64,000 nt of DNA from Candidatus Calditenuis fumarioli (GTDB taxonomy: Archaea > Thermoproteota > Nitrososphaeria_A > Caldarchaeales > Calditenuaceae), in the NCBI GenBank assembly GCA_030059665.1, contig JANVYR010000002.1, positions 185,261 through 249,260 of the forward strand. Reading direction: 5' to 3'. The position numbers and the translations under genes are program-made. Shown here in pieces: positions 2,214-28,845 of the stretch. The notes beneath the pieces are model-generated. The model did no database searches, was not told the origin of the DNA, and was given only the letters and a program-made list of their open reading frames with translations. Each line of letters opens with the position of its first letter. The first letter of the stretch is position 1.

Positions 2214-2516
2214 CTACGGGGACGATCGGATCGCCAGTCCTCCGGCTATCGCGGGGAGCAGCAGTATCCGGTCGTTCTCCCGGACCCTCGCCTCGAGCCC
2301 TCCCAGCTCGTTCACGTTCCGGTCGTTGAGGAAGACGTTGACGTGCCTCCTGACCCTCCCCTGCTCGTCGAGGAGCTGCGTCCTCAGCTGGGGATACCTC
2401 TCCACGAGGGCCCTGATCGCGTCTCCCACCGTCTCCGCCTCCAGCGACACCTTGTCGGCGTTGCCCACGTAGGGCCTCAGCGGCGCTGGGATGTAGACCT
2501 CGACCTTCTGCTTCAA
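2214..2516 (-). CDS. MoaD/CysO-like beta-grasp sulfur-carrier or protein modifier with a C-terminal tail after Gly-Gly
   Basis: This 100-residue protein starts at a TTG. Its length and pattern fit the MoaD/ThiS/CysO ubiquitin-fold family: an N-terminal strand with 'IPAPLRPY', a central 'RRHVNVFLNDRNV' and the closing 'LLLPAIAGG'. The LPA(I/V)AGG ending is typical of CysO-type carriers. Mature carriers end in Gly-Gly, but here Gly92-Gly93 is followed by seven more residues (LAIRSSP), so cleavage would be needed before activation. In the family the exposed Gly-Gly is adenylated by an E1-like enzyme and then carries sulfur or is conjugated to protein. A JAMM protease (8800-9270) and an E1-like enzyme (25173-26018) are in the same region. 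Which pathway it serves is not shown here. Confidence 0.85.
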   Translation of the reverse strand: MKQKVEVYIPAPLRPYVGNADKVSLEAETVGDAIRALVERYPQLRTQLLDEQGRVRRHVNVFLNDRNVNELGGLEARVRENDRILLLPAIAGGLAIRSSP

Positions 2517-2679
2517 TCCCTCATTGACGGGCCGGCCGCTTGATCATAACCCTAAGCGTCACGTCCGAGGCTTGTGCCTGCGCTGCTGGTGGACCTTCGG
2601 CCCGGTCACATACTACCCTGGTATTACGGACTGTCGGCTTGACCGGTTCGGTCCGCAAACCCTTTACGTGGAGGTGGTT

Positions 2680-2691
2680 GACAAATTTGTC
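2680..2691. promoter_or_regulatory. 12-bp perfect palindrome upstream of HTH gene
   Basis: GACAAATTTGTC is an exact palindrome ending 18 bases before the ATG of the HTH gene at 2710. Its AT-rich core stands out in GC-rich surroundings. The position suits an operator, possibly bound by the product of the downstream gene (inference). Confidence 0.5.
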
Positions 2692-2709
2692 TAACGCGGA
2701 GGCGGGCGG

Positions 2710-3472: not shown

Positions 3473-3652
3473 TCTTCCCCAGCTGCACCTACTCGGTAGG
3501 ACGTAGAAATATACGCTATCTTCAGCCACGACCCGAATGGCCAACCCTTTGCGGACCTCGTCTGCGGGTTGAGGTTCCGGGGTCTGGAACGGGCTTCCAC
3601 TTCCTGTGCAAAGGGCACGCTTTATCGACGGCGCAGATGTCGACCTGGTGGG

Positions 3653-4036: not shown

Positions 4037-4321
4037 CGGAGCGCCCGGGAGGGCTATGCTCTGCTGACGATACTCAGACCGGCTGAGCTCCATCCAGCGG
4101 TGAGGGGGGGCCTCTCGGAGAAGTCGCTGCCACACTACGGTCCGGAATGGGCGCCGGAGGTGTAGAGGGCGAAGGGCCAGGGCCTGGATACGGACCCACG
4201 ACATCCACGTCTCCCCATCAGCCCGGATTACGGGCAAGGCCCTCTGGCCGCGTGCCTCCGCCAGCTGAGATGAAACCCTCAGGCCCTCAGCTCCCGCGCA
4301 AATCGCTGCCGACCGGAAAGG

Positions 4322-4771
4322 TCATCCCCTGCTGACCGCGAGGATCGCCACCTTGTCGTTGGCGCACGACAGCGAGATCGTCCCCGCTGAGTAGGAACGG
4401 CTCGGGTCGAACGCTCCCCACACGACGGAGAAGAGCCTGTGGTCCACCTCCACTGAACCGTCGCTGCTCCGCATCAGCTTGACCACGGTGAAGTTCACAG
4501 CTATTCCACGAGGTGCCACAGAGGCAATGATGCCCAGCGCTTCATCCGGTGATGTGTACTCTTCTCTGCAGATGAGCTCGTCGAGGTCGCCCCTCTCGTT
4601 GAGGGCCCCCAGCATTTTGTTGGCAATCTCCTCCAGGTCTCCCCTGTGCTCGGAGGTCGAGGCCGTCTTCAGCGAGACTATCTGGATGTACAGCATCAGC
4701 CCGATCACTATTATCGAGGCCGCAAGTATCGCCTCGACGGTCCACGCTATCCCGGCCCTGCGCCTCCTCAC
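4322..4771 (-). CDS. Pilin-like protein with class III-type N-terminus
   Basis: The start is a GTG at 4771 overlapping the stop of the upstream gene (GTGA), which indicates translational coupling. The 149-residue product opens with a short basic leader (VRRRRAG) followed by about 22 hydrophobic residues ('TVEAILAASIIVIGLMLYIQ') and then a soluble domain with two Cys residues. This is the layout of archaeal type IV pilin-like subunits, in which a prepilin peptidase cuts before the hydrophobic helix. It is likely a minor pilin or pseudopilin for the export cluster at 10.6-28.8 kb. No peptidase gene is visible in the window. Confidence 0.7.
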   Translation of the reverse strand: MRRRRAGIAWTVEAILAASIIVIGLMLYIQIVSLKTASTSEHRGDLEEIANKMLGALNERGDLDELICREEYTSPDEALGIIASVAPRGIAVNFTVVKLMRSSDGSVEVDHRLFSVVWGAFDPSRSYSAGTISLSCANDKVAILAVSRG

Positions 4772-5565
4772 ATCGCCCCACCCGACCAGGCCCAGACCTC
4801 GATCGTTATCGAGACGCCGTTCTCCATGATCGTGGAGTCTGAGACGTAGACCGCATCGCTCGGCACCCTGACGCTCGACGGATCGACGGATCTGCCCTTG
4901 ACGAAGGCCAGCACCGCCTCTGGATACGCAGACGGGACGACGACGTATGAGCCGCCATCGGTGTAGAAAACGATCGGCGACTCGTGTGTGAAGACGCTCG
5001 TCAGCGCACCGGGTTCTATTGTGTCGCTGTACGTGAAGGAGCACACCTTAAGCTGAGCGTTCGCCCTGATGGTTCCATCGCTCTCGATTTTCACGAGGTT
5101 CGGATCCGGCCTCATCCCGGTGATTCCGACGCCGTACCTGGAGACCGCAACGCCCTTCCCCGGACCAGTGGGGCAGGCGAAGACCTGCGAGGGGAAGGAC
5201 GGCGATGCACCGGCTTGGGAGATGGCGATACGCTGGGGGAAACTGATCCTCGCCACGAAGTCGACCCGGAACCCCGTTAGGTCCATCGCAGGCCGACCGA
5301 CGTAGCTCGGGTTCAGCTCGAGGAGGTTCTTGGACGACCTCGAGATGTAGCCCTTCAGGAAGTTGGTGACGGCCCTGGCCTCTGCCCTCACCATCGCGTC
5401 CTCCGTGTAGCTCAGGTACATCGATCCGCCGCTCAGCGCGAAGACCACCACGACCCCGACCGCAAGGGCGAAGACGCCCGCAGCGATCGCGGCGTCGACG
5501 ACCGCCTCCAACGAGGGACGACCAGAGTGCTGGGCTAAAAGCGTTGTTTCCGGGACGATCCTCAA
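4768..5565 (-). CDS. Pilin-like or membrane-anchored extracellular protein
   Basis: This 265-residue product starts at a TTG (5565). Residues about 20-45 form one hydrophobic helix ('VDAAIAAGVFALAVGVVVVFALS'), and the rest is a beta-rich ectodomain with paired Cys. There is a short polar leader and no other membrane segment, so it looks pilin-like. It is the first gene of a two-gene unit; its stop overlaps the start of the next pilin-like gene by 4 bases. The divergent RING-like gene shares the promoter region, and a single AT box at 5585-5593 is correctly placed for both directions. It probably belongs to the nearby type IV pilus-like machine. Confidence 0.65.
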   Translation of the reverse strand: MRIVPETTLLAQHSGRPSLEAVVDAAIAAGVFALAVGVVVVFALSGGSMYLSYTEDAMVRAEARAVTNFLKGYISRSSKNLLELNPSYVGRPAMDLTGFRVDFVARISFPQRIAISQAGASPSFPSQVFACPTGPGKGVAVSRYGVGITGMRPDPNLVKIESDGTIRANAQLKVCSFTYSDTIEPGALTSVFTHESPIVFYTDGGSYVVVPSAYPEAVLAFVKGRSVDPSSVRVPSDAVYVSDSTIMENGVSITIEVWAWSGGAM

Positions 5566-5584
5566 ACGCGCCGATGCCCACCAG

Positions 5585-5593: not shown

Positions 5594-5619
5594 TCGTTGC
5601 GTTATGCCGGAGGCGGATC

Positions 5620-5919
5620 ATGGAGGAGCTGCTGAGGCGGATCAAGGTCGAGATCGTGGGCAATTACAGGAACTTCGTCCCGAGCCTCGGCGTCACGACA
5701 GACGGCACGTGGGAGATCCAGATCCTGGACAAGTTCGAGAGCTTCATGGGGCCGCTCGAGTGCCCCATCGACAGGGAGGAGGTTAAGCTGGAGGAGGCCG
5801 TTCTCTGTCCCATCTGCATGACGCCCTACCACCTGGACTGCGCCAGACTGCTCGCCAGCAGGAGGGAGAAGTGCTGGAAGTGCGACAAGTTCGAGAGGTT
5901 CGATCTGCTGGTGACGTGA
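5620..5919 (+). CDS. Small RING-like zinc protein, candidate ubiquitin ligase
   Basis: This 99-residue protein starts at an ATG with a GGAGG-type site just upstream. The C-terminal half holds a zinc-binding cluster: Cys48 with Asp51 (ECPID), Cys63-Cys66 (CPIC), His71, Cys74, then Cys85-Cys88 (CWKC). The order and spacing resemble a compact RING/treble-clef module like the small RING finger protein of the Caldiarchaeum ubiquitin operon; Asp51 may stand in for a ligand, as Asp does in some RINGs. Such proteins bind a charged E2 and promote transfer to substrate. It begins the ubiquitin-like block: a coiled-coil protein follows after 1 base, and the Ubl-E2 fusion is 2 kb downstream. Activity is inferred. 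Confidence 0.75.
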   Translation: MEELLRRIKVEIVGNYRNFVPSLGVTTDGTWEIQILDKFESFMGPLECPIDREEVKLEEAVLCPICMTPYHLDCARLLASRREKCWKCDKFERFDLLVT

Positions 5920-5920: not shown

Positions 5921-6763
5921 GTGGAGCCCGCGGAGACGAGGAAGGTTCTGCTCACACTGGTGACCGATCCACGACGGTTCGGCAGCTCACTCTACTTCAA
6001 CCCCGACGTGCTCGGCTTCAGGCTCGGCACGGATTCGTGGACGGCCCTCGAGGCGCTCGTCTCGCTGGAGGACGCGGGGATCCTGAAGCTCTCGGCCCCA
6101 CCGGAGCTGGAGCTCCTGTATCAGGTCGAGCTGACCAAGGTGCGCGTCGCCAACTTCCTCGAATTGAAGGGTTACCAGGAGATCACCTCCGACTTCAAGA
6201 GGGTCTGGCTTCTGGGGAGGGTGCTGAAGCTAGAGTCGCCTCAGCAGCTCGGTCTCCGTCTAACGGACTACTCTCCGAGGCTCTCCGCCCTTTCGGGGAA
6301 CCTGACTAAGATGTTGAAGCTCTTCGAGAGCAAGTCGCTGGTCAGCAAGGAGGTCTACATGAGGGTCGCGTCCTCGGTGATGCGCGAGACGGCCTCTGCC
6401 GCGAGGGACGCGAAGGAGATACTGTCGGAGCTGAGCGACTTGGTCCGCACGATATCCCAGCTGATATCCAGGCTCAGGGAGGCGCGATCGTCCATCGAGG
6501 AGACGTCCGCCAAGCTGGGTATCAAGCTGGAGGAGAACGAGAGCCTGATCAGGGCCTACCGCGAATCGGAGCGCGAGCTGCTGGAGCTCCTCGGGCTCGT
6601 CAAGTCCAAGCTGCTCGAATCCTTCCCCAACTGGAGCGCCGTCCTTACCTCGTACGACAAGCTCAGGAGCGAGTTCGGTGCGACAGGGCAAGATTTCATC
6701 TCGGCGCTGGAGACCATGAAGTCCATAAACGACAAATTCGTGCTGGTCACGCAGATCGGTTGA
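5921..6763 (+). CDS. Coiled-coil protein co-transcribed with the RING-like protein
   Basis: A GTG start one base after the RING-like stop gives a 280-residue product. Residues 1-110 are a globular part containing 'LEALVSLEDAGILKL' and 'VANFLELKGYQEIT', possibly winged-helix-like. Residues about 120-250 are long amphipathic helices ('SELSDLVRTISQLISRLREARSSIEE', given here only as a region) with heptad pattern. No enzyme motif is seen. The tight spacing suggests it works with the RING-like protein, for example as substrate adaptor or scaffold, but this is inference. Its 3' end overlaps the convergent gene by 17 bases. Family not recognised. Confidence 0.7.
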   Translation: MEPAETRKVLLTLVTDPRRFGSSLYFNPDVLGFRLGTDSWTALEALVSLEDAGILKLSAPPELELLYQVELTKVRVANFLELKGYQEITSDFKRVWLLGRVLKLESPQQLGLRLTDYSPRLSALSGNLTKMLKLFESKSLVSKEVYMRVASSVMRETASAARDAKEILSELSDLVRTISQLISRLREARSSIEETSAKLGIKLEENESLIRAYRESERELLELLGLVKSKLLESFPNWSAVLTSYDKLRSEFGATGQDFISALETMKSINDKFVLVTQIG

Positions 6764-7832
6764 TCTGGTCCAGCAACCTCTTCAGCAGCTTGATCTCGTC
6801 GCTTATCTGGCCCAGCAGGTCCACGGCCTTGTTCGTCCGGACCTCCATCGCGTCGAGCAGCGCCTTCTCGACCCGCTGACCCCGCGACCTTATCCCCCTG
6901 ATCGCGTCCAGCTGCTCCCTGAGCTGCGCTATCCCGGCCTCGATCACCCTCAGGTAACCTTCCAGGTCGCCACCGGAACCAACGCCGAACTTCCGCAGCA
7001 ACTCGTTGTAGAGGTACTCGTACTCCTCCTTCGAGATCTCGCCCAGGTTAAGCCTGGTCCTGAGGAGCTCTATCTCCACCTCGACGAACGGTGGCAGCGT
7101 CACGGCCTCGTCCTGCTGGAAGTACTTGCCCAGGGCCTGAACGATCTCATCCAGGCGCTCCGTGACCTCGGCCTTCGTGGCCTCGAGTTGCTTCGGATCT
7201 AGGTCGCCGATGGTGGTCCGTAGGAAGTCCTCCTCCAACCGCTCGCGGAGGTGCCTGAGACCGCTCAGCATCTCAGACCAGATGCCTCCCCCTCCACCCT
7301 CTATCTGATCGATCGTCGCCTCTATCTCCTGAAGCCCCCTCACCACCTCGTTCACGAGCTTCTGGTCCTGCTCCTTTGATGAGGTTAGGTTCAGCAGCGA
7401 GGTCACCAGCTGAGACCTCCTCCTGATGAGCCCGCCGAGGATTATCGGGGACGGAGGAAGGTCGTTAAGGTTCACGGACTCGAGGCCGAGGGCGAGCTCG
7501 ACAGCGGCCCTCCTGAGGCTTTCGTACTCGGTCTCGGTCATCCTCCCGGCGAGGAACCTGAAATCGATGGTCCTGATCAGCTGGATGAGCTTGGACCTCA
7601 GCGCCGGGTCGTTCGGGACGGACGCGATCGATATCAGTCCCGTTGCCTGGAGGTTCAGAAGCCGCTCGATGACGCGCTCCTCAGTGGTTTGCAGGCTCGC
7701 GGCCAGATCGGACACGTTCACGCTGACCCTCCCCGACCTCCTCGGCAATTCGGCCAGGTAGCGCACCAGCGCCATGTCCTCGGCTGTGAGGTGCAACTCC
7801 CACGCACTTGGCTTGCCATGGTTATTAAGCAT
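6747..7832 (-). CDS. Winged-helix plus coiled-coil protein
   Basis: The 361-residue product has a possible ATG start at 7832; a later start is possible because the bases just upstream of 7832 are AT-rich and promoter-like. Residues about 18-75 resemble a winged helix ('VNVSDLAASLQTTEERVIERL' then 'LQATGLISI'). The remainder is almost wholly helical with heptads, including repeated short helical hairpins around 'LNLGEISKEEYEYLYNELL' and a C-terminal coiled coil. It is convergent to, and similar in style to, the coiled-coil protein at 5921-6763, and divergent from the Ubl-E2 gene. It could be a regulator or scaffold of the modification system; no function is established. Confidence 0.65.
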   Translation of the reverse strand: MLNNHGKPSAWELHLTAEDMALVRYLAELPRRSGRVSVNVSDLAASLQTTEERVIERLLNLQATGLISIASVPNDPALRSKLIQLIRTIDFRFLAGRMTETEYESLRRAAVELALGLESVNLNDLPPSPIILGGLIRRRSQLVTSLLNLTSSKEQDQKLVNEVVRGLQEIEATIDQIEGGGGGIWSEMLSGLRHLRERLEEDFLRTTIGDLDPKQLEATKAEVTERLDEIVQALGKYFQQDEAVTLPPFVEVEIELLRTRLNLGEISKEEYEYLYNELLRKFGVGSGGDLEGYLRVIEAGIAQLREQLDAIRGIRSRGQRVEKALLDAMEVRTNKAVDLLGQISDEIKLLKRLLDQINRSA

Positions 7833-7970: not shown

Positions 7971-8789
7971 GTGATCATAACCGTGAACGAGCTGACCACG
8001 AGAAGGAGCGTGAAGCTAGAGGTCGAGCCGGGACACACCGTGCGTGTGGTGGTCGAGGAGGTTATGAAGGCCCTCAAGATACCGCCGACAACGACGTACC
8101 GGCTCGTGCTCGGCGGCAAGGAGATCGGCCCTGAGCTCTTCGACAAGACGCTCGGCGAGCTGGGCATCTCGGACGGCGCCATCATGGACCTGGTACCGAG
8201 GCCGGTGGGTGGAGCGATGCTGCCGCAGGACAAGCTGCTGAAGAGGCTCGAGCGGGAGGAGCAGGAGATGAGGCAGCAGGGGTACGAGTTCGTCCGGGAG
8301 GAGGTCTGGAGGCAGATGAGCTTCCCGATGGTTTACAGCGCCGGGCTCGAGACCCTCGACGTAGCGCTGAGGTACGTCGTCACCTTTCAGGCACGCGGTT
8401 TCGTGCTGACCAAGAAGGGCGTGGAGGAGCAGCTCACCCACACCGCCAGCATCTACGTGCTCCGGTACTACCCATACCCCGATCCGAAGCACGGTGCGCC
8501 GATGAGGATCTTCTGGGAGAGCAACATCTTCCATCCGAACATCTGCCCCGGGCCCAGATACGGCGGAAACGGGCTCGTCTGCTGGAAGATGATCAGGGAG
8601 TGGGGGAAGAACTTCTCGCTGTCGACGCTGGTGAGGGGCCTCCAGCTTCTCGTTGAGAACCCGAACCCCGAGGACCCGCTCAGCAAGATCCCCATCTGCA
8701 TGCAAGCGACCGCCTTCTTCAAGGAGAACCCGCACCTCATGGGATCCATGCAGGCTCCTGCCGGGGGCAGGCCGCGCGTCGTCGAATAG
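7971..8789 (+). CDS. Ubiquitin-like domain fused to an E2 conjugating enzyme
   Basis: GTG start with a GAGGTAGG site; TATA-like cttattaac is about 45 bases upstream. The product is 272 residues. Residues 1-79 form a ubiquitin-like beta-grasp domain ending in Pro-Val-Gly80-Gly81. Residues 84-260 form a UBC/E2 domain: His188-Pro-Asn190 (HPN), candidate catalytic Cys204 in 'GNGLVCW', Trp211, and 'NPNPEDPL' at 230-237, all in standard E2 order. In the family, E1 passes the Ubl C-terminal Gly to the E2 Cys as a thioester. Here the modifier is fused in front of its own E2, so release after Gly81 would give a mature Ubl and free E2. The JAMM protease gene follows 10 bases downstream. Confidence 0.92.
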   Translation: MIITVNELTTRRSVKLEVEPGHTVRVVVEEVMKALKIPPTTTYRLVLGGKEIGPELFDKTLGELGISDGAIMDLVPRPVGGAMLPQDKLLKRLEREEQEMRQQGYEFVREEVWRQMSFPMVYSAGLETLDVALRYVVTFQARGFVLTKKGVEEQLTHTASIYVLRYYPYPDPKHGAPMRIFWESNIFHPNICPGPRYGGNGLVCWKMIREWGKNFSLSTLVRGLQLLVENPNPEDPLSKIPICMQATAFFKENPHLMGSMQAPAGGRPRVVE

Positions 8790-8799: not shown

Positions 8800-9270
8800 A
8801 TGTGCGCCGAAGAGAGGCCGGTTTACCCAGTTTACATCGACCTAGAGGTTTTGCTGGACGTGACGAAGCACGCACTGGAGGAGCTGCCGCGTGAGGTGAT
8901 TGGGTTTCTGCTGGGGAGGGCCTACACGTGGAACGGCGAGACGTATGTCCACGTGACCGGTTCGATAAGAGGTCGGTCCATCGCCTCCGAGACCTCAGTC
9001 GCCTTCGCTCCCGATTCACTGGCCGAGGTGGCCGAGTCTCTCAGGCGAGATCATCCCGACAAGGAGATCGTCGGATGGTACCACTCGCACCCGGGATACG
9101 GATGCTTTCTGTCACCGACCGACATAACGTCGCACAAATCTTGCTTCGCGATGCCGCATCACGTCGCGCTGGTGGTGGATCCGGTGAGGAAGGAGGCAGC
9201 CTTCTTTCGCGTCTCGGAGGGATTCGGCTACGAGGGCGTGAGGTCGGCCATCGTGAGGAGGCGGGTGTGA
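8800..9270 (+). CDS. Rpn11-like JAMM metalloprotease (deubiquitinase-type)
   Basis: This 156-residue MPN+/JAMM domain protein starts at an ATG. The motif is complete: Glu32 in 'LPREVIGFLLG', His95 and His97 in 'GWYHSHPGYGCFLS', Ser105 and Asp108, so a catalytic zinc site is expected. The 'GWYHSHPG.GC.LS..D' form is close to eukaryotic Rpn11 and to the archaeal Rpn11 homologue of Caldiarchaeum. These enzymes cut the isopeptide or peptide bond after a Ubl Gly-Gly. Likely tasks are maturation of the upstream Ubl-E2 fusion, perhaps of the CysO-like protein at 2214-2516, and removal of Ubl from substrates (inference). It sits between the Ubl-E2 gene and a tiny acidic-protein gene, with 10- and 1-base gaps. 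Confidence 0.92.
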   Translation: MCAEERPVYPVYIDLEVLLDVTKHALEELPREVIGFLLGRAYTWNGETYVHVTGSIRGRSIASETSVAFAPDSLAEVAESLRRDHPDKEIVGWYHSHPGYGCFLSPTDITSHKSCFAMPHHVALVVDPVRKEAAFFRVSEGFGYEGVRSAIVRRRV

Positions 9271-9271: not shown

Positions 9272-9445
9272 ATGGTCAGGGTGTTGGACGTCACGGAGCC
9301 GCAGCCCGAGCAGAGGCCTCCCCCTGACATAACGGACGAGTACGAGGTGATATCGCGCGATGAGGAGGGAGACGGTTACGACATCTCGGAGATCGTGGAC
9401 ATGTTGAAAGGCATGGAAAGCGGCGAGGGGGACGCTCAGCCCTGA
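9272..9445 (+). CDS. Small acidic protein of the ubiquitin-like operon
   Basis: A 57-residue open frame with an ATG one base after the JAMM stop. It is strongly acidic and proline-rich in the first half ('EPQPEQRPPPD'), followed by 'EYEVISRDEEGDGYDISEIVDMLKG', of which the last part could form one amphipathic helix. The composition suits a disordered peptide that binds a partner, for example a cofactor for the JAMM protease or a substrate tag, but no family is recognised. The tight spacing argues for co-translation. Its end overlaps the convergent gene 9436-10170 by 10 bases. Confidence 0.65.
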   Translation: MVRVLDVTEPQPEQRPPPDITDEYEVISRDEEGDGYDISEIVDMLKGMESGEGDAQP

Positions 9446-10170
9446 ATCCTCTCCAGAACCTCCCTTCTCAGCACCGCTTCGCTCTCCTCGATCGCCCTCA
9501 TGACGCTCTGGACCCTCGAGGCCGGCTTGATGCCGCCCAGCGCGCGCTTTGATAACTCGATCTCCTGTTGCATCAGCAAAGCCACCTCCAGTATTATGTC
9601 CGAGAGGCCGGTCGAACCGCCCTCGTATTCCCTCATGAGGATGGCTAGGTCGTCACCGACGTACGAGGAGAGCCAGATCCACCTGTCCAGACCCTCATAG
9701 GCTCTCCTGGCGTTCTGCAGGTCCTCGATCTCCAGCTGCGCTAGCCTCAGAAGGTGAAGCCCCTCCTCCTTCTTGCCCAGCTGGTGTAGTATGCCGGCGG
9801 CAGCTGCGAGCCTCAGCAGCAACTTCAGCGATGCGCCCGCCTCCACGACGTTCCTCGGCATCCTCTTGCTCAGGAGACGGTACGACATGTCGGCGGCGCT
9901 CAAGGTGAGCAGGAATTCCGCCGCCAGGCGATTCAGTTCCTCCAACACCTCCTCGTTTCCCGACTTTTCAGCCGCAACGCGGTTCAGCACCAGCGAGAGT
10001 GACGTCCTGAGCTGTTCCAGCCTCGAGACCTTCTCCAGCAGGCTGCCGAGCGACGCCTCACCGAGTAAGGGCGAATCGAAGACCTGAAGGACTACGGGGG
10101 GACGCAGGCTGTACTCCGCGACGCTCACGACCCTAGGGTTTTTCCCCCGCCTCCTGCCTCTCCTGACCAT
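9436..10170 (-). CDS. Helical protein of unknown function
   Basis: ATG start at 10170, with a strong TATA-like element (ctatatattatc on the complement, near 10190-10200) about 25 bases upstream, so a leaderless transcript is likely. The 244-residue protein has a very basic N-terminus (VRRGRRRGK) and a mostly alpha-helical body with Leu/Ala-rich repeats resembling TPR-like or four-helix arrangements ('LLRLAAAAGILHQLGKKEEG'). It has no signal peptide, membrane helix or enzyme motif. It lies between the ubiquitin-like block and the secretion ATPase and could act in either. Not recognised. Confidence 0.65.
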   Translation of the reverse strand: MVRRGRRRGKNPRVVSVAEYSLRPPVVLQVFDSPLLGEASLGSLLEKVSRLEQLRTSLSLVLNRVAAEKSGNEEVLEELNRLAAEFLLTLSAADMSYRLLSKRMPRNVVEAGASLKLLLRLAAAAGILHQLGKKEEGLHLLRLAQLEIEDLQNARRAYEGLDRWIWLSSYVGDDLAILMREYEGGSTGLSDIILEVALLMQQEIELSKRALGGIKPASRVQSVMRAIEESEAVLRREVLERIQG

Positions 10171-14108: not shown

Positions 14109-14114
14109 GGTGGG

Positions 14115-20711: not shown

Positions 20712-21533
20712 TTGAGGCGTAGCGAATCCGGTCTGAGCGTGGCCGTACAGACTGCAGCGATGATAGTGATAACTGTGGCCATAGCAGGGGCCATCGTAGC
20801 CCTGTGGAGGCCATGGGAAACGGGAAGTCAGGTCCAAGCCGGAGACATATCCTACGTCATGCAGAACGTCCATGAGGCTGTCCTCAGGCGAGAGGGTTCG
20901 GTCCAGCCACATTTCTCGCTCACGGTTTACCCGCTCAAGGAGACCCACAAAGTGGAAATCGAATGGAACGGCAATAGAATGCCTGTTATGGTGTCAGTAA
21001 GCACTATAGAATATCATGGCGACAAGATGAGACTCCCAGGCGTGTACTTCCTCGACAAGGGGAGCGTCGACGTTCTCGGGACCTACATCGCGGACAGGAA
21101 AAGGAACTACACGGTCAATGGGGTGGATACGGTATCCTATGTCGAGTACGATGAAAAGGGGATGAAATACGTCGTCAAGGCCCTGCCATACGTTAACGTG
21201 GCCGTTGACAGAGTGTACCACGACGTTGTCGTTAACGTCATGATAAGGTTCGTGGTGCTCGCGCCCTATCCGCTGAACGCGATGGAGTTCCCAGACTCGG
21301 TTAAGCGAGGATACACCATCGGAGCGGGGCAGATGATCACCCTCAGGATGAACAACACCTACAGGTTCTACATGCAGCAGCCCGAGTCGGTGGGCGGAGG
21401 GACCCTCAGGCTCTACTTCGATGGCGAGCCAATCCTCAACGCGCAGAACGAGGCCCTGGAGGTCAGGACTACAGAGCACACCATAGTGAGGGTGTTCGTG
21501 GACATGGTCGTGCTGAACGTATGGGGGAGGTAG
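20712..21533 (+). CDS. Pilin-like protein with class III-type leader
   Basis: The in-frame start is a TTG at 20712. A GGAGG site precedes it, and an ATG five bases upstream (20707) opens only a two-codon frame ending in the TGA that overlaps this TTG. The 273-residue product begins 'MRRSESG' then 'LSVAVQTAAMIVITVAIAGAIVALW', a classic short-leader archaeal pilin N-terminus, followed by a beta-rich ectodomain of about 230 residues. It is downstream of the giant protein by 14 bases and 1 base before the next pilin-like gene. Likely a pilus or pseudopilus subunit. Confidence 0.75.
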   Translation: MRRSESGLSVAVQTAAMIVITVAIAGAIVALWRPWETGSQVQAGDISYVMQNVHEAVLRREGSVQPHFSLTVYPLKETHKVEIEWNGNRMPVMVSVSTIEYHGDKMRLPGVYFLDKGSVDVLGTYIADRKRNYTVNGVDTVSYVEYDEKGMKYVVKALPYVNVAVDRVYHDVVVNVMIRFVVLAPYPLNAMEFPDSVKRGYTIGAGQMITLRMNNTYRFYMQQPESVGGGTLRLYFDGEPILNAQNEALEVRTTEHTIVRVFVDMVVLNVWGR

Positions 21534-21534: not shown

Positions 21535-22011
21535 TTGGCCTCGACCTACGTATACATCGTCACGATAGGCGTTCTGATGCTGATCGGCATGACTTCCGCA
21601 TACCTCCTCATGCAGCAGGTCGGATCGATGACGTACGTCGGCCAGAGGAACGCCCTCGCGGTAGCGGCCTCGCACGTCCTTTCGGGGATGTGGAGCGCGG
21701 TGGAGGAGGCCAAACTCGTTCCCGGCGGGGGAGTGGAGTACAAGGCCGTCTCGGTGGGGTTCTCGTTCAGGGCTGAGGTGGGGAACAGCCCGAGGACGGG
21801 CCAGCTCTCCCTCTGCGTCACGGCGTTCGGCATCGCCTATGAGAGGCCTCTCCCCACCATTCCCGGTGTCACGTACAGGCCCTCGGGTTCGGGAGGTGAG
21901 GTGGTTACGATCAGGGCCTCCGTATCGGAAGGGTCGATCGAAATAACGCTTGGAAACATGGACCAGAACAGTCAGTTCACAGAGGGCCAGCCAACGGAAT
22001 GCTTCAAATGA
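21535..22011 (+). CDS. Small pilin-like protein
   Basis: TTG start one base after the previous stop. The 158-residue protein has an N-terminal hydrophobic helix ('YVYIVTIGVLMLIGMTSAYLLM') with almost no leader, followed by a compact extracellular domain with a pair of Cys residues. This is like ArlF/G-type or minor pilin subunits. Its TGA overlaps the ATG of the following metalloprotease gene (ATGA), showing translational coupling. Exact family not recognised. Confidence 0.7.
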   Translation: MASTYVYIVTIGVLMLIGMTSAYLLMQQVGSMTYVGQRNALAVAASHVLSGMWSAVEEAKLVPGGGVEYKAVSVGFSFRAEVGNSPRTGQLSLCVTAFGIAYERPLPTIPGVTYRPSGSGGEVVTIRASVSEGSIEITLGNMDQNSQFTEGQPTECFK

Positions 22012-23486
22012 ACAGGACGCGCTGTTTTCTGCTTCTGCTGTCGTTGCTTATTTTGCAGCATATTGTCTATTCAACTGCGAACGCTTTAGAAGAGTCCCCC
22101 AACAACGGCCATGGGGTCAACTACGATTACCTGATCGAGTTCGGCCGGGACTGTGTGGCCGAGGTCAGGGTCCTGGTGAGGACATGGGACAGCGAGGCCA
22201 GGGCATGGATGCTCCTCCCGAGGCTCGAGAAGGGTTTCTCCACCAACGCGTCGTTGACAAAGGTGGAGGGTGCTAACCTGGAAGGCAGGAGGCTGGCGCT
22301 TTACGTGAACGTTTCGTTCCACCTTCCTCGTGGGACTACGGCCGCATTCAACTACTCGTTACCCCACGTCTGTCTGGTCCACCGCGGAAAGGCCGTCTTC
22401 CTCTCGCCGTTGATGGTGTTCTCACCCGGAGGCAGCGGAACGGTATCCGTTAACGTGAACTGGCCCGGGTCGTCCTTCGCAGGAGCCGATGCCGCGCTCT
22501 CATCTGTCAGGAGATCGGATGACGGGTTCGGCGTCACCAGGAGGCTGCCGCTGCTGTCGGGAAGGCTCTCGTTCGTCTTCTCGGTCCCAGAAGAGGAGCT
22601 GAGGGAATACGTGAACTGCTCCCTGACGTTCGTCCTGCCCGAGAGGTACAGCTGGATCGCCGAGAGGTTGATGGCGTTCAATTCGAAGGTGGACGGGAAG
22701 CTCGCGGAGCTTTTCCAGCGAAAACCCTCGAGGTTGACGGTTTCGTTCTTCCTGCCCGACAGATACGACGAGGGGCCAGAGGGGTTCGTAACTCCGCCGA
22801 ACGGCGACAGCACAGGAAGGATCTCGCTCAACCTCTACCTGTTGAGGATGGTCGACGGCATGCTCGAGGTCACCTTCCTCCACGAGCTCATCCACCAGTA
22901 CCTCTTCGCGAACGGCGTCGGGGCCGGCGCCACCTGGCTCCACGAGGGTCTAGCGACCTACCTCTCGGTGAGGCTGGCGATGGGTACGGGGCTGGAGGCA
23001 CCCGCGTACGTCCGTGAGCTGTTCGACTGGGAAAACGCGAGCCTTCAGGAACTCCGAGGCCTTCTCGGCTGGAGGCCGGGTGAGGAGAGGGGCAGGAGGT
23101 GGTACGCGATGGCCTACAGGGCCGTGGAGCTGCTCTTCTCGGCCGACAGCGACGGGATGAGGAAGGCCGTTTCCTCGCTCGGGGACGCAACGGTGAGGAC
23201 GCCGGAGGACGCCGCGGTGCACGTCTTCGATCACCTCAACGCAGAGGGGAGGAGTTTAATGATTGAGATGGGGCTGGTGAGCGCACAGGATCTCGCTCAG
23301 GAGATCGGCTCCGAGCCCATGACACCACGTAACGAGACGCCCGGGAGCGCTGTGATGAACGGCACCGCGCAGACGGTTCAGGGCATCCCACAAACCGTTA
23401 CGCACGAGCACCTCGTTCTCGTGTTAGCGACCGTCCTGACCGTATCGGTGATAGCGCTGATCCTGATCGACGTCAGGCGGACTTAG
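22008..23486 (+). CDS. Membrane-anchored extracellular zinc metalloprotease (peptidase MA-like)
   Basis: ATG at 22008, in ATGA overlap with the previous gene; an ATG nine bases earlier is possible. The product is 492 residues: signal peptide (residues about 5-27), a beta-rich domain to about 210, a catalytic domain with His292-Glu293-Leu-Ile-His296 and Glu313 in 'TWLHEGLATYLS' (the gluzincin pattern of peptidase MA/M1 relatives), and a C-terminal transmembrane helix with a basic end ('VLATVLTVSVIALILIDVRR'). It is therefore displayed outside the membrane. Position in the pilus operon suggests processing of exported subunits or of prey/host proteins (inference). Confidence 0.82.
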   Translation: MNRTRCFLLLLSLLILQHIVYSTANALEESPNNGHGVNYDYLIEFGRDCVAEVRVLVRTWDSEARAWMLLPRLEKGFSTNASLTKVEGANLEGRRLALYVNVSFHLPRGTTAAFNYSLPHVCLVHRGKAVFLSPLMVFSPGGSGTVSVNVNWPGSSFAGADAALSSVRRSDDGFGVTRRLPLLSGRLSFVFSVPEEELREYVNCSLTFVLPERYSWIAERLMAFNSKVDGKLAELFQRKPSRLTVSFFLPDRYDEGPEGFVTPPNGDSTGRISLNLYLLRMVDGMLEVTFLHELIHQYLFANGVGAGATWLHEGLATYLSVRLAMGTGLEAPAYVRELFDWENASLQELRGLLGWRPGEERGRRWYAMAYRAVELLFSADSDGMRKAVSSLGDATVRTPEDAAVHVFDHLNAEGRSLMIEMGLVSAQDLAQEIGSEPMTPRNETPGSAVMNGTAQTVQGIPQTVTHEHLVLVLATVLTVSVIALILIDVRRT

Positions 23487-24316
23487 CCCTGCTCCTCGAT
23501 CTTCGTGGTGTCGTATCCGAGCTCCTTCAGCCTCGTCACGTACTCCGATCTCAGCCTCTCGTACACCTCCTTCTTGACGCGACCGTCCTTGTACGCCAGC
23601 TCGAGGCTCGAGAGGAAGTTAAGGTATCTCGTGACCATGACGTTCCGGCCCTCATCGATGACCTCCTTGGAAACCGCCTCGCCGCCAACCCTCGCCTCAA
23701 CCCCTGCGGTCCCCTCCTCGACCTCAGCAGCTCCTTCATGGGGCTCAGTCACGGGGACGTATGTGGCCCTCTCCCACGTCGCACGCACCTTCATGCGTAG
23801 GACCTGGAAGCCCTCGCTCGGCCGCGTGAGGATCAGCTTCAACGTGAACGGAGATATCCTGCCCGACCACATCAACAGGCCGAGGAGTACCAGTGACGTG
23901 GAACCGATCGCAGCGATCGGGTAGTAGCCGGGAAGGAAAACATATGCCGCAGAGACGGCCGCGATCATCGCTGCCAGCGTCGCGATCGTCTTCCGGTCGA
24001 GCGTGAGGTTCACGATGCCCCTGCTTGCCAGAAAGGTCGTCACCAGCAGCGCGATCACCAGACCTGCGACCCCTGCGGCCACGAAGGAGATCGCCGTGAA
24101 GAACAACGCGAAGACCGTGTAGAAGATCAGAACGTCAGGTCCCTTAGCGAGCGAGACGAAGGCGGCCAGTATCGCCACCTCGATGACGATCAAGACCAGC
24201 CCCAGGACACCGCCGATCGTATAGGCAGCACCGACCGCGGTCAAGAGGAAGGAGACCATGGCTATGTCCGACCTCAGTGCGTTCTTGATCCTCGCTCCTC
24301 CCGTGATCTCCGCCAT
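23483..24316 (-). CDS. Polytopic membrane protein with cytoplasmic C-terminal helical domain
   Basis: The start at ATG 24316 fits a TATA-like ttttatttt about 25 bases upstream; the open frame further upstream crosses that promoter. The 277-residue protein has about six hydrophobic segments in residues 15-165, then a charged, Glu/Val-rich linker and a C-terminal helical hairpin ('ELAYKDGRVKKEVYERLRSEY') resembling short oligomerisation domains. No enzyme motif. It lies on the opposite strand within the secretion cluster and overlaps the metalloprotease gene by 4 bases at the 3' ends. Function unknown. Confidence 0.7.
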   Translation of the reverse strand: MAEITGGARIKNALRSDIAMVSFLLTAVGAAYTIGGVLGLVLIVIEVAILAAFVSLAKGPDVLIFYTVFALFFTAISFVAAGVAGLVIALLVTTFLASRGIVNLTLDRKTIATLAAMIAAVSAAYVFLPGYYPIAAIGSTSLVLLGLLMWSGRISPFTLKLILTRPSEGFQVLRMKVRATWERATYVPVTEPHEGAAEVEEGTAGVEARVGGEAVSKEVIDEGRNVMVTRYLNFLSSLELAYKDGRVKKEVYERLRSEYVTRLKELGYDTTKIEEQG

Positions 24317-24478
24317 CGAATGCGAAAGAACTCGCCAAAATAAAATTCTTTTTCTGAAAACAGTCCAAATCTGCCCATGCGGACAGCTCATCCCTCTCGT
24401 ATGAGCGTCGAGGATCGAACCGTCCGTGGCGGGCGCAACAGGGGAACGTTTTTGAAGGGCTCAGGGGCATGAGGTTCG

Positions 24479-25165
24479 ATGGAGGGAGCGGTCAGAATAG
24501 CAGCGTCGGCCGTGATCGCCTTCATTGCGGCACTGGGGCTCGTCATCGCTTTCCCGGGGATCGTTCCCGGAACGATGAGGGTGACCACTGTTCAGGTTCC
24601 CGTGGTGGTAACGCAGACGCTCAGGGTGAACGTCACCCATACCGCCTTCCAGACCGTCCTGAAGGACACCGCAGGACCTGTGTGGGAGCTGGTCTTCGTC
24701 GAGTTGCCCCGCGAGCCACGAGAAGGCTCGATAACGGTGTACAACGCGACGCTCGGCCTCGGACGCAGCGGTATAGCGGCGGCCATCGTGGTCAAGGCCC
24801 CTGACGGATACCAGTTCGCGCCGACGGTGAACGGGTTCGTGTTCAGGCTTGAGACCAACCTACCGGTAAAGGCTCTGGTGCTGTACTCCGACGTCTCGGT
24901 CCCCGTTGTGCCGGGGCTCGACAGGAGCAACTACAGGACGATGCTCGCCGAGAAGGCCTTCTCGCCCACCGCGCTCCTGCCGTACCAGAACCCGAGGAGG
25001 GCCGACGCTTCACCGGGCGCCTTCACGCTCCAGCGCGAGCGGGGCAACTTCCAGCCGTATTCGTGGCTCGCGATCTGGCCGCTTTCGGTCTACTTCCACG
25101 GCATCGAGGGCCACGAGACGAAGGTGCGGGTCGTGCTGACCTACAGCCTGGTGGAGGCGAGGTGA
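24479..25165 (+). CDS. Signal-anchored extracellular protein upstream of E1
   Basis: ATG start; 228 residues. Residues about 5-30 form a signal anchor ('IAASAVIAFIAALGLVIAFPGIV'), followed by a beta-rich ectodomain with no visible catalytic residues. The E1 gene begins a few bases after its stop, with its ribosome-binding site overlapping the end of this gene, so the pair is likely co-expressed. It probably faces outside the membrane, while E1 is cytoplasmic. Family not recognised. Confidence 0.65.
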   Translation: MEGAVRIAASAVIAFIAALGLVIAFPGIVPGTMRVTTVQVPVVVTQTLRVNVTHTAFQTVLKDTAGPVWELVFVELPREPREGSITVYNATLGLGRSGIAAAIVVKAPDGYQFAPTVNGFVFRLETNLPVKALVLYSDVSVPVVPGLDRSNYRTMLAEKAFSPTALLPYQNPRRADASPGAFTLQRERGNFQPYSWLAIWPLSVYFHGIEGHETKVRVVLTYSLVEAR

Positions 25166-25172
25166 GGTGTCA

Positions 25173-26018
25173 ATGTCATCCGGCACAGGTCTGAGGGGGC
25201 TCCCCGTCCTGCAGGTCTACAGGATGGACGACGACGTCTACGAGAGGCAGCGTCGTATCTGGAACCAGGACAGAATAGGCGCGATGCGGGTCCTGGTGGG
25301 AGGTGCGGGCGCGCTCGGGAACGAGATCGTCAAGAACCTCGTTCAGATCGGGGTCAAGCGCGTTTACGTAATCGACTTCGACCGTGTGGTCGCGTCCAAC
25401 CTTAACAGGTGCCTCTTCTTCCGGAGGAGCGATGCCCTCAGGAGGAGCAAAAAGGTGGAGGTGCTCGCGAGAAGGGCGAGTCAGATCAACAGCGACGTCG
25501 AGGTGGTCCCGATCCACGGCGACATCAGGGACCTGAGTGACGACGTCATCAGGGACGTGGACATCGCGCTAGGTGCCTTCGACAACTTCCACGCAAGGCT
25601 GGTCCTGAACCTGCGGTGCTACGAGAGGCAGGTCCCCCTCATCGACGGTGGCATCGAGGGACTGCTCGGGACGGTGCAGGTGGTGGTGCCTCCCTTCACG
25701 CCCTGCATCGAGTGCGGCATCACCGACATGGACCTCCAGCACCTTTGGGAGAGGTTCTCGTGCGGCGGCGAGGCCACCGGGCTGGAGGGGCCGAAAATCC
25801 CGTACGTTCCGATGACGGGGGCGGTCGTCGCAGGCATTCAGGTCGCCGAGTGCGTCAAGGTCCACCTCGGGCTGGAGCGCTTCAAACGGGAGGGGAACTG
25901 GAGCGACAGCGTTGGCGAGCCCATGGCGGGCAAATCCCTGCTGATAGACCTCAGAACGGGTTCGTTCTACGCGTATGACCTCCAGCGGAGGAGCGACTGC
26001 AACGTCTGCTCTCTTTGA
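25173..26018 (+). CDS. E1-like ubiquitin-activating enzyme (ThiF/MoeB/Uba superfamily)
   Basis: ATG at 25173 after a GAGGTG site (GTG 25167 is possible). The product is 281 residues: 'YERQRRIW' near residue 23, as in eukaryotic E1 subunits (YDRQIRLW); nucleotide-binding 'GGAGALG' at 43-49; 'VIDFDRVVASNLNR' with the conserved Asp and Arg finger; and two zinc-binding pairs, Cys178-Cys181 and Cys276-Cys279. Cys197 in 'FSCGGE' is a candidate catalytic thiol. E1 enzymes adenylate the Ubl C-terminal Gly with ATP and load the E2. This is the only E1 in the window, 16 kb from the Ubl-E2 gene, inside the secretion cluster. It probably activates the Ubl of 7971-8789 and perhaps the CysO-like protein. 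Confidence 0.92.
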   Translation: MSSGTGLRGLPVLQVYRMDDDVYERQRRIWNQDRIGAMRVLVGGAGALGNEIVKNLVQIGVKRVYVIDFDRVVASNLNRCLFFRRSDALRRSKKVEVLARRASQINSDVEVVPIHGDIRDLSDDVIRDVDIALGAFDNFHARLVLNLRCYERQVPLIDGGIEGLLGTVQVVVPPFTPCIECGITDMDLQHLWERFSCGGEATGLEGPKIPYVPMTGAVVAGIQVAECVKVHLGLERFKREGNWSDSVGEPMAGKSLLIDLRTGSFYAYDLQRRSDCNVCSL

Positions 26019-26057
26019 ACGGAGTAAGGTTATATGATCCAGTAAGGCACCACAATC

Positions 26058-28316
26058 ATGGGAAGAGACCCGCAAAGCACGAGCGAGATCGTTGCACGGA
26101 GCGTTCCGATCTTCCTCCTCCTGGTCCTCCTATTGACGCAGTCGGCACAGGTTCTGGTGGCGCACGCTCAACAGGACTCGTCACCTCCCATCAGTTTGCC
26201 GCTCAGGGCACCGCTTCCGGTGAACGTGATCACCGTTGGACTCAGGCCGGAGGTGCTGGGGCTGAGGACGATGGCGGAGCTTCAGCAGATACTCAGCACG
26301 CACGTCAGGTCAAAGGCCGCTTCCTACGTCGGCTTCAGCCTCGACGACCCGATCCTGATCGCCGAGTTCGACGTCCATCTCCAAGTTCTGGAGGCCCCCC
26401 AGCGGTTCGTGGCCGAGTTCGCCAACGATTTGTCCTTGGTCACATATGATCCGGCGAGGCTCCCGCTGGAGGCCAAGCAGGAGAACCAGAGGTACAGGGA
26501 CTTCGTCAGGTCGGCTTACGGCGGCACCGTGGCTGGCAGCCTGACGTTCACCCTGACCGACATGGAGGCTGTCGTTCAGCTCATGGCCTACTACACCGAG
26601 AAGTACATACCCGCGGTCCTGAACGACTACAACGTCTACCTCCTCTGCGGTAACTCTTTCTTCGATGGAAAGGTCCCGGTGTACTTCACGGTGGGCTACA
26701 CGCCAGAGAGGCAGGTGCCCAACGCGGTGGTGGGCCTCAACCTGTACGGAGGCATGTGGACCGGCCGGCACGTGGTGATCGACGTCTGCGCGGTGCCTAA
26801 CCCTTACGGCAACTTCGCGCCGAAGGGCCAGCAAGAGGTCCTCGAGTACCTGCCGGTATGGGTCTCCAACGACCCTGAATTCAGGATCGGGATGGTGGTG
26901 AAGTACGTGGACGAGGTCATCGACAACCTCTTCGTCAAGTCCCTGCTCTACCTGCCCCGGTATCAGGTGACCTACCTCTTCGACGTCGTGGTGATCGACC
27001 TGACCACCTCCGGTGGAGGGCCCTCCTTCTTGGTGAACAACTTCTCCCCTGAGCTCTTCGAGTACGCCATGAGGCAGCTGGCGCCCTACAACTACTACAC
27101 GAGCAGGTACAGCTACTACCACATAAGCGATGTGCCGCAGATGAGGCAGGTCATCCGCTCCTCTAGGGGATACCAGGTAATAGACGTGGAAGCGGCGCTC
27201 GACACAGCCCAGCGTCTCGGGATAATCAAGGAGACCGTGAAGGGTGTCGCTTACACGCCGATACTGATCTTCGTCTCGGACTCGGACATTTTCCCTGATG
27301 CGCCAGGCGTGCTCGGCATAGCATGGGCTGACAGGGAGGACCCCAGATATCCACGGGGGGTGGTGGTCGGGGCCGTGTTCAGCGCAATTCAGCGCGAGGG
27401 CCTCACGTTCACCGTCATCCACGAGGCAGGGCACACGCTTGGGCTGGCACACCCGTTCCAGGACCTCGACGAGTCGCAGATGGCCCCCGGCAGGTCCGGA
27501 AACCTCAGGCCGACGTTCGTGAACAGGTGGATCTACGCCTACGTCGACTCCGCGATGACCTACGCTAATGTGCTTCAGGTCACCGATTACCGGGACCTCT
27601 TCACATACAAGTACCCGATGAGGACCTTCTTCAGCACCTTCGACCTGGACGCGCTGGACAGGACCACGATCTCCCTCCTGCTGTACTACTACCTGCTCTA
27701 CAGACAGGAGGCTCTTGCGGAGCTCAACAAGCTCAACAGGCCGCTTGAGGCCTTCGAGAAGGGGAAGGAGCTTCTAAAGCTGGCTGACCAGGCCGCCGTC
27801 GATGCGGTCAGGCTATTCGAGCAGCATATGTACTTCGATCGGCTGGAGTTCGAGGGACTGGGATCGCAGCTGGTCTCCTCGTTCGATCACGCCTGGCTCG
27901 CATACGTCTCGGCTTACACCCTGTACAACCTGATCGTGGGCGTTCAGGACGCAGCGGCCTTTTACGAGCCCCAGATCGAGGAGCTGCAGCGCACGGTTGC
28001 GAATCTGAACGGCAGGATCAACGATCTGAGCTCCCAGCTCGAGGACTCGAGGAGGCAGACGGAGCAGCTGAGGACGGCGCTGGAATCGGAACGCCAGCAG
28101 AGGAATGCCATCCAGGCGGAGCTTGACCGGACGAAGGGCGAGCTGCAGCGGGCACAGCAGGATCTCGCGGCGAAGGAGAGGGAACTCTCCGACGCCAACG
28201 CCAGGGCAACGACCTACCTCTACGGCATGGTGGGGGTCGCCGTCGGCGCAGCGGTCGCGGTCGCGTCCGTGGTCGTCCTCAGCAGCAGGAGAAGGCCGAA
28301 ACCGACGGTAGCCTGA
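26058..28316 (+). CDS. Membrane-anchored metzincin-type metalloprotease with coiled coil
   Basis: The ATG at 26058 follows a TATA-like ttatatgat by about 25 bases. The 752-residue product has a signal peptide (about residues 15-38, ending 'AHAQQ'), a large ectodomain, a zinc motif His455-Glu-Ala-Gly-His459-Thr-Leu-Gly-Leu-Ala-His465 (metzincin HExxHxxGxxH), a coiled coil at about 635-720 ('LQRTVANLNGRINDLSSQLE' region), and a C-terminal transmembrane helix with a basic tail ('RRRPKPTVA'). So the catalytic domain stands outside on a stalk. It is the second surface protease in the cluster and may shave or mature surface or secreted proteins. Confidence 0.85.
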   Translation: MGRDPQSTSEIVARSVPIFLLLVLLLTQSAQVLVAHAQQDSSPPISLPLRAPLPVNVITVGLRPEVLGLRTMAELQQILSTHVRSKAASYVGFSLDDPILIAEFDVHLQVLEAPQRFVAEFANDLSLVTYDPARLPLEAKQENQRYRDFVRSAYGGTVAGSLTFTLTDMEAVVQLMAYYTEKYIPAVLNDYNVYLLCGNSFFDGKVPVYFTVGYTPERQVPNAVVGLNLYGGMWTGRHVVIDVCAVPNPYGNFAPKGQQEVLEYLPVWVSNDPEFRIGMVVKYVDEVIDNLFVKSLLYLPRYQVTYLFDVVVIDLTTSGGGPSFLVNNFSPELFEYAMRQLAPYNYYTSRYSYYHISDVPQMRQVIRSSRGYQVIDVEAALDTAQRLGIIKETVKGVAYTPILIFVSDSDIFPDAPGVLGIAWADREDPRYPRGVVVGAVFSAIQREGLTFTVIHEAGHTLGLAHPFQDLDESQMAPGRSGNLRPTFVNRWIYAYVDSAMTYANVLQVTDYRDLFTYKYPMRTFFSTFDLDALDRTTISLLLYYYLLYRQEALAELNKLNRPLEAFEKGKELLKLADQAAVDAVRLFEQHMYFDRLEFEGLGSQLVSSFDHAWLAYVSAYTLYNLIVGVQDAAAFYEPQIEELQRTVANLNGRINDLSSQLEDSRRQTEQLRTALESERQQRNAIQAELDRTKGELQRAQQDLAAKERELSDANARATTYLYGMVGVAVGAAVAVASVVVLSSRRRPKPTVA

Positions 28317-28425
28317 GAGCGATACTAACCTGCTTCTATTCTTTTTGCAGTGTTGGTCGGTGTTGCTGCGATCGGCCCGAATTTTTCGTATATGTTTAAT
28401 TATTGGACAATTGAAATGAGTTCGC

Positions 28426-28845
28426 ATGGGGAAGGGAAGCAGAAGGAACGAAGGGCTGAGCGAGGCCGTGACGACGATTCTGCTCGTCGTGATCGGGATA
28501 GCGATGGCGTTGATGATATGGCAGTTCTTTACGCCGCGACCCTCTGAGGAGCTCAGGATAGGGCCCATAGACGTCTCCGGCGGGACGGTCATCTTCACCG
28601 CCCAGAACGTGGGCAGCGTGGACGCCGAGATCGTCGGCGTGGCCTGCTATCCGCCGGGGAGCGCACCGCCTTCGACCGGGGGCGCAGTAACGCCGCTCGG
28701 CGGTGCGGACACAAAGCTGCAGCAGGGCGAGTCGAGCAGTTTCTCGGGCAGCTGTGCGGGTTCCGAGCCTGGCAAACCGATCAACGTGCTGGTCTTCACG
28801 AAGAACAAGGCCTACGGACCGTTCACGGTCATAGTCAGGAGCTGA
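28426..28845 (+). CDS. Archaeal type IV pilin (pilin N-terminal domain family)
   Basis: ATG start with a TATA-like run (gtatatgtttaatta) about 30 bases upstream. The 139-residue product shows the textbook archaeal pilin N-terminus: basic 'KGSRRNEG', then 'LSEAVTTILLVVIGIAMALMIW', as in the DUF1628/type IV pilin N-terminal family. A small beta-rich domain with paired Cys follows. The prepilin peptidase would cut after the Gly. It has its own promoter and could be the major subunit assembled by the ATPase and platform proteins encoded upstream. Confidence 0.85.
   Translation: MGKGSRRNEGLSEAVTTILLVVIGIAMALMIWQFFTPRPSEELRIGPIDVSGGTVIFTAQNVGSVDAEIVGVACYPPGSAPPSTGGAVTPLGGADTKLQQGESSSFSGSCAGSEPGKPINVLVFTKNKAYGPFTVIVRS

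Follow-up and report, generated by a model that had tools for sequence, protein, structure and literature searches.

Gene Content of the Locus

Between positions 4322 and 28845 of a 64,000-nucleotide stretch of DNA from Candidatus Calditenuis fumarioli (the window, to which all coordinates refer unless a locus is named), genes of a ubiquitin-like conjugation system lie among those of a type IV pilus (T4P)-like machine. The host genome (G000) comprises 1.57 Mb in three contigs and belongs to the Calditenuaceae, a family within the order Caldarchaeales (PMC10547907). The span encodes a RING-like protein, a fusion of a ubiquitin-like protein (Ubl) with an E2 enzyme, an Rpn11-like JAMM protease, an E1, and a pilus-type ATPase and platform, as well as six or seven pilin-like proteins and two surface metalloproteases. 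An earlier inspection of the letters (the sequence-only reading) had listed these proteins, and Pfam matches, N-termini and motifs bear out their presence and positions. The E2, JAMM, E1, secretion ATPase and platform score above the curated Pfam cut-offs, while the Ubl and the RING-like protein score below them.

The Ubl-E2 fusion (7971–8789, plus strand) consists of a Ubl (residues 1–81, ending RPVGG) and an E2 (residues about 83–272). The E2 part matches UQ_con at 3.4e-7, and the N-terminal Ubl matches Rad60-SLD (6.9e-5) and ubiquitin (2.4e-4), both just short of the cut-off. Within the genus, HPN188-190, Cys204, the ENPNPEDPL motif and the G80-G81 junction are invariant, whereas the residues after Gly-Gly vary; identity to the window protein is highest in the Ubl (88–90%), intermediate in the E2 (77–78%) and lowest in the joint (50–56%). 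The structure model of the fusion is poor (pLDDT 59), and a fold search on it backs the Ubl part only. The Rpn11-like JAMM protease (8800–9270, plus strand; JAB, 2.3e-16) has as its best PDB match the Caldiarchaeum Rpn11 structure 6fjv (1.2e-22), and its residues E32, H95, H97, S105 and D108 are invariant in the genus. Directly 3′ of it is a small acidic protein of 57 amino acids (aa) (9272–9445, plus strand), the position of which is kept in four of four genomes at 35–41% identity.

The short E1-like activating enzyme (25167–26018, plus strand; ThiF, 5e-46; 64–67% identity in the genus) lacks the C-terminal UFD, with 283 aa compared to 394 aa for the canonical E1 of the same genome, and its candidate catalytic cysteine, within RFSC, aligns across all short E1s. 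A membrane-anchored protein of 228 aa (p228; 24479–25165, plus strand; 52–54% identity) is encoded directly upstream of E1, which it always adjoins. The RING-like zinc protein, a candidate E3 (5620–5919, plus strand), has the pattern C-x2-D...C-x2-C-x4-H-x2-C...C-x2-C with invariant C48, D51, C63, C66, H71, C74, C85 and C88, and most matches in a fold search are E3s of the RING/U-box kind (probability up to 0.99, E 0.04). The coiled-coil protein CC1 (5921–6763, plus strand) starts one base past the RING stop. Because the two genes adjoin in four of four genomes, CC1 may be a substrate adaptor. Two further genes lie on the minus strand, namely CC2 (6747–7832), a helix-turn-helix plus coiled-coil protein with a weak HTH_Crp_2 match (36–39% identity in the clusters of three relatives), and the conserved helical protein hel (9436–10170; 35–38% identity), which keeps the same neighborhood in all four genomes.

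The machine itself is represented by a T4P/archaellum-type secretion ATPase (10591–12444, plus strand; T2SSE, 2e-23; 73–79% identity in the genus) and a TadC-like membrane platform (12441–14108, plus strand; T2SSF, 2.4e-11; 72–75%). The ATPase has a lysine-rich C-terminal tail (14–16% lysine) with the conserved blocks VKPKVTI and LGDV.LVG.GD.VL.PP.VVKKG, whereas the other T4P ATPases of the order, among those with C-termini read, mostly end in another domain. By eye and hydropathy, seven cluster proteins have a pilin-like N-terminal segment that could be the class III signal peptide of a prepilin, although no Pfam pilin match was found among these candidates. They include pil1 (4322–4768, minus strand; N-terminus RRRAG-IAWTVEAILAASIIVIGLML with one hydrophobic segment; 62–64% to orthologues in the clusters of three relatives), the pilin/TadE-like pil2 (4768–5565, minus strand; a single N-terminal hydrophobic segment; 49–53% in three relatives), a protein of 193 aa (15671–16252, plus strand; KSVG-QASVTFVVLVVLLGLIG and an N-terminal hydrophobic segment), one of 273 aa (p273; 20712–21533, plus strand; ESG-LSVAVQTAAMIVITVAIAG; 45–47% in two relatives), and one of 139 aa (28426–28845, plus strand; RRNEG-LSEAVTTILLVVIGIAMALMIWQF; 80–83%), the gene of which lies between E1 and Ubl-E2 in three relatives. 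The membrane/pilin-like protein of 158 aa (p158; 21535–22011, plus strand; 49–52% in two relatives) also has an N-terminal hydrophobic segment but is less typical.

The remaining candidate is a large pilin-like protein of 518 aa (14115–15671, plus strand; SSSG-QVLIGSATVMLVILLVM), for which no counterpart was found in the incomplete assemblies of the relatives. The region 14000–16000, which covers this gene, has a GC content of 0.455–0.50 compared to about 0.61 around it, and the relatives' contigs break in the matching region. This AT-rich segment is possibly a variable surface cassette.

Further surface proteins are a large secreted or membrane protein of 1482 aa (16249–20697, plus strand) with LSPYLPFPPEI repeats, a signal peptide-like start and several hydrophobic segments, the C-terminal part of which is present in two relatives, and a polytopic membrane protein with six hydrophobic segments (23483–24322, minus strand; 38–41% in two relatives). 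A surface metalloprotease-like protein (21999–23486, plus strand; 33–36% in two relatives) has a HELIHQYL motif with signal and C-terminal hydrophobic segments, and a surface metzincin-like protease (26058–28316, plus strand; 47–48% in two relatives) contains HEAGHTLGLAHPF (HEAGHTLGLAH), terminal hydrophobic segments, and a C-terminal coiled coil and transmembrane segment; both protease assignments are based on HExxH motifs. There is no prepilin peptidase gene in the locus. Gene ends overlap or nearly overlap in an operon-like manner in E2-JAMM-small protein, ATPase-platform, the 518-193-1482 aa genes, and p228-E1.

Conservation of the Linkage Within the Genus

Ubl-E2 fusions of the window type are also encoded by the Candidatus Calditenuaceae metagenome-assembled genomes (MAGs) SKYB91, SKYB46 and SKYB45. 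The relatives compared here (G001, G002 and G003) are incomplete MAGs of the same genus that are similar to each other. In each of them, a single contig carries the order p228-E1-pilin139-UblE2-JAMM-small-hel-pil1-pil2-RING-CC1-CC2-(ABC transporter)-ATPase-platform, and in three of three it stops in or just past the platform gene. In G002 and G003, a second contig starts within the C-terminal end of the gene for the 1482-aa protein, followed by p273-p158-protease-m302-protease. The finding of E1, Ubl-E2, JAMM, RING and ATPase-platform on one contig in three other MAGs rules out a misassembled join, a concern that the sequence-only reading had raised for 9.4–10.6 kb and about 25 kb. That reading had also remarked on the 16 kb separating E1 from its E2, which is true here but peculiar to G000, as E1 lies one gene from Ubl-E2 in the relatives.

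The blocks of the locus are ordered D-C-F-A-G-B in the window compared to A-B-C-D-F-G in the relatives, with the gene set and every orientation kept, and the cluster orthologues are 32–83% identical across the genus. When the relatives' open reading frames (ORFs) of at least 150 aa were compared with the window plus 20 kb upstream (84 kb), all matches fell within 4325–28845, and no flanking gene was common to the window and the relatives. Linkage has been kept through block reordering and complete turnover of the flanks, so the cluster is held together beyond background gene order. This points to E1, Ubl-E2, JAMM and RING together with the ATPase and platform being a selected unit. In the relatives (as read in G001 and G003), CC2 and the pilus ATPase are separated by genes for an ABC transporter permease and ATPase (locus L037, 14524–16778). 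These transporter genes are absent from the window and are likely a passenger.

The cluster had previously been drawn from 2214 to 28845. Its end stands, whereas the conserved unit begins at about 4.3 kb. The second beta-grasp protein then counted as part of the set (2214–2516, minus strand) is a SAMP1/MoaD protein (NCBIfam SAMP1, 70.1 bits; cut-off 60), and it was rejected as a member since it is missing from the clusters of the three relatives. It has a seven-residue tail beyond Gly-Gly (AIAGGLAIRSSP), and therefore trimming would be needed, as for the Ubl. Elsewhere in the window, tape-measure-like and phage tail-like proteins are encoded at 31347–32336 and 43664–46707, separated by about 11 kb that contains housekeeping genes, and are possible provirus or tail-like remnants. 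A ferredoxin-like/NuoI-like ORF (59880–62015) has an apparent intein interruption (CGFC-VDPMTPVIVNPG...FVPAGVTTSN-CVDAC).

A Second Ubiquitin-Like System of Separate Ancestry

The genome of G000 also encodes a canonical operon on another contig, with a Ubl (78 aa, ending GG), an E2, and the 394-aa E1, which has a C-terminal Ubl-like domain. A second Rpn11-like JAMM is located on the contig of this operon, and a MoeB-like E1 is the third ThiF protein of the genome. Phylogenies of E1, E2 and JAMM each group the four genus members with G158, a genome of the same phylum but another class, in a clade of the window type that is split from the canonical enzymes with 99–100% support; for E1, this clade is also apart from MoeB. 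The branch of G158 is long and its exact placement unsure; the E1 tree was rebuilt without G081, which had a very long branch. A recent duplication of the canonical operon within the genus is ruled out by these separate clades containing the distant archaeon G158. There are two distinct ubiquitin-like systems in one cell, and the set in the window is of separate ancestry.

Related Systems Elsewhere in the Phylum

When 398 genomes of the phylum were searched with profiles, high-scoring E2 proteins of the window type came only from this genus and G158. The latter encodes a Ubl, E1, E2 and JAMM as well as a coiled-coil protein with RING-like cysteines at its end. Its Ubl is a separate, unfused precursor (VVGG plus a tail), its short E1 and JAMM are 35–41% and 39–41% identical to those of the window, and the E2 proteins of both end in a common RPRV(I/V) motif. 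The RING half of the coiled-coil protein shows only a weak likeness to the window RING (P 0.005), so this fusion is no more than suggestive. Homology of CC2 to the coiled-coil proteins of G158 and G342 was rejected as not significant. The G158 system adjoins a vWA-dockerin protein and a membrane-anchored cohesin protein (locus L123, 391–4559), and its contig matches the other G158 contigs in GC content. T4P genes beside it were considered and rejected, as the pilus ATPases of G158 are on other contigs.

Weaker profile matches led to a third type (G081, G160, G180, G229 and G342) in which a Ubl, an E2, a zinc-ribbon protein and an E1 with an N-terminal Ubl occur with large surface proteins. Three of these genomes, from several archaeal families (G081, G229 and G342; loci L079, L156 and L157), encode a JAMM fused to a transmembrane segment and a large ectodomain, and the C-terminal part of such a fusion lies at a contig end in G160 (L154). 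No T4P ATPase was recognized near the systems of G081, G160, G229 and G342. G342, which belongs to another family, has its own Ubl-GG-E2 fusion (L157, 9568–10443, minus strand; YLIGG-IDVARL; profile match probability 95.8%), independent of that in the window. Surface genes recur beside non-canonical archaeal ubiquitin-like systems, most specifically in the pilus association described here.

Proposed Function and Alternative Explanations

We propose, with a probability of roughly 0.6, that the locus encodes a dedicated, reversible Ubl-conjugation module of one T4P-like surface-assembly machine, distinct from the ordinary Caldiarchaeum-type system. The proposal builds on the observed gene content, intact catalytic motifs, kept linkage, separate ancestry and invariant Gly-Gly junction. 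The neighboring JAMM would cut the Ubl-E2 precursor after Gly-Gly, which would yield free modifier and free E2; the short E1 would activate the Ubl and Cys204 of the E2 would receive it. The RING-like protein with CC1 may then direct the Ubl to cytosol-facing lysines of the machine, from which the JAMM would remove it again, and the modification could set when or how much of the pilus-like apparatus is built. The likeliest explanation for the fusion would be a polyprotein processed by the linked JAMM, because Gly-Gly is invariant at the junction, G342 has an independent Ubl-GG-E2 fusion, and Caldiarchaeum Rpn11 cleaves a ubiquitin precursor, linear ubiquitin fusions and ubiquitin-GFP after Gly-Gly (PMC5654768; PMC6043591). 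Among putative targets, the ATPase tail would be the first candidate because it is lysine-rich with conserved blocks and most other T4P ATPases read from the order end differently, followed by the platform, the prepilin N-termini or CC2/hel.

Several points weigh against this proposal. The pilus linkage was seen in this genus only among the sampled genomes of the phylum, and no pilus genes are present on the 12 kb contig of the G158 system. In the relatives, a separate contig carries the latter part of the locus, so continuity there is not proved. The match of the RING-like protein to Prok-RING_1 (E 1.7e-5) is below the Pfam cut-off, and cleavage, conjugation, targets and outcome are all inferred. 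The sequence-only reading had proposed a functional unit, to be supported by neighborhood conservation in several lineages. Linkage of the ATPase and platform to E1, E2, JAMM and RING holds in all four genomes of the genus but not over several lineages, and control of assembly, cargo choice or turnover is something we still infer.

Alternatively, the proteins tagged by the Ubl may be the exported ones (pilins, the 1482-aa protein and the proteases) rather than parts of the machine, with tagging before or during export serving their sorting or quality control. The interleaving of pilin genes with E1 and Ubl-E2 in the relatives is consistent with this, as are the position of p228 directly before E1 and the secreted vWA/dockerin and cohesin proteins that adjoin related systems without pilus genes. 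However, most exported domains are extracellular and would be cytosolic only before export, and no conserved cytosolic lysine site was identified in the exported proteins, so that tagging of cargo appears rather unlikely.

An antiviral conjugation system like bacterial Bil/Bub, acting on viral structural proteins and residing by chance with genes for pili, which are common virus receptors, is improbable. The enzyme set is alike in outline (Ubl, E2, JAMM and E1), and PADLOC E1-E2 models match the window E1 at 1.6e-11 and BilD at 2.1e-4. Nevertheless, the canonical E1 of G000 outscores the window E1 on the same models, and defense models match none of Ubl-E2, RING, CC2 and hel, and CC1 only weakly. 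Presence together with the pilus genes is vertical and genus-wide, and no relative was found in viral contigs. Assignment as a defense system was rejected because no specific model matched and there were just generic ThiF-domain matches on E1 and weak JAB matches; a mobile origin was also rejected, as relatives were not found in viral contigs.

More improbable still is that no conjugation occurs and the uncut Ubl-E2 assists the secretion machine as a scaffold or chaperone, like YukD/EsaB in type VII secretion. The Ubl does match YukD weakly (0.0032) and is fused to its E2, but the catalytic residues of E1, JAMM and E2 are intact, Gly-Gly is invariant while the following residues vary, and the Ubl of G158 is a separate precursor with Gly-Gly plus a tail. 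Mere neighborhood, frozen by recent ancestry or low gene-order turnover, could be suspected from four genomes of one genus, of which three are incomplete and resemble one another, but is highly improbable given the diverged orthologues, the changed block order and the absence of any shared flanking gene, as a neutral region would lose cohesion as its flanks did.

A regulatory role of the conjugation module over the pilus-like machine is plausible, and the locus suggests that ubiquitin-like tagging can serve archaeal cell-surface assembly. More tentatively, the phylum may hold an envelope-specialized Ubl branch, with a pilus-locus form and a JAMM-transmembrane-ectodomain form, in which the Ubl regulates surface-machine assembly in a manner like eukaryotic membrane-protein sorting. 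Earlier work reconstituted archaeal ubiquitin systems in vitro, on an artificial substrate (PMC5654768; PMC6043591). In this locus, the gene order points to one concrete process and narrows the candidate targets to a few, which makes the purpose of archaeal ubiquitin-like tagging testable. Were the proposal correct, a membrane machine would have come under control of the ubiquitin type outside eukaryotes as well. Recurrence of the Ubl-GG-E2 fusion further suggests that modifier and E2 could be made in equal amounts by simple means, both being released by the protease that also deconjugates the modifier.

Comparison With Known Systems

The operon of Caldiarchaeum subterraneum (Ub, E2, E1, srfp and Rpn11) resembles the window in having a Ubl with Gly-Gly, an E2 with HPN and a catalytic cysteine, a ThiF E1-like protein, a RING-like protein, and an Rpn11-like JAMM. 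The window set differs from this type in the separate clade of its E1, E2 and JAMM, the E1 without a UFD, the fusion of Ubl to E2, and the location inside a pilus-like locus. Archaeal T4P, the bindosome assembly system (Bas) and Ups pili share with the window the ATPase/platform superfamily, pilin-like proteins and extra surface proteins, although the window scores of 219 bits for BasE (NCBIfam cut-off 1000), 90 bits for BasF (cut-off 1300) and 79 bits for UpsF are all under the curated cut-offs. Ubiquitin goes unmentioned in the text of an archaeal T4P survey from 2016 (PMC4858521), and a literature search for archaeal ubiquitin together with pili or secretion, mostly in openly readable texts, found no such report.

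Type VII secretion also includes a ubiquitin-like protein (YukD/EsaB) within a secretion locus, but no WXG100 protein or FtsK-type ATPase was recognized in the window locus, and to our knowledge type VII secretion has not been described with an E1/E2/JAMM set. The G158 system is like the window in its short E1, E2 tail motif, JAMM and coiled-coil protein with RING-like cysteines, and differs in its unfused Ubl and dockerin and cohesin neighbors. In the third type (G081, G160, G229 and G342), Ubl, E2, E1 and JAMM likewise adjoin large surface proteins, but the JAMM has a membrane segment and ectodomain and the E1 an N-terminal Ubl-like part. The window locus is a variant of the archaeal ubiquitin-like systems, set among pilus-like genes, and it is real and conserved in the genus.

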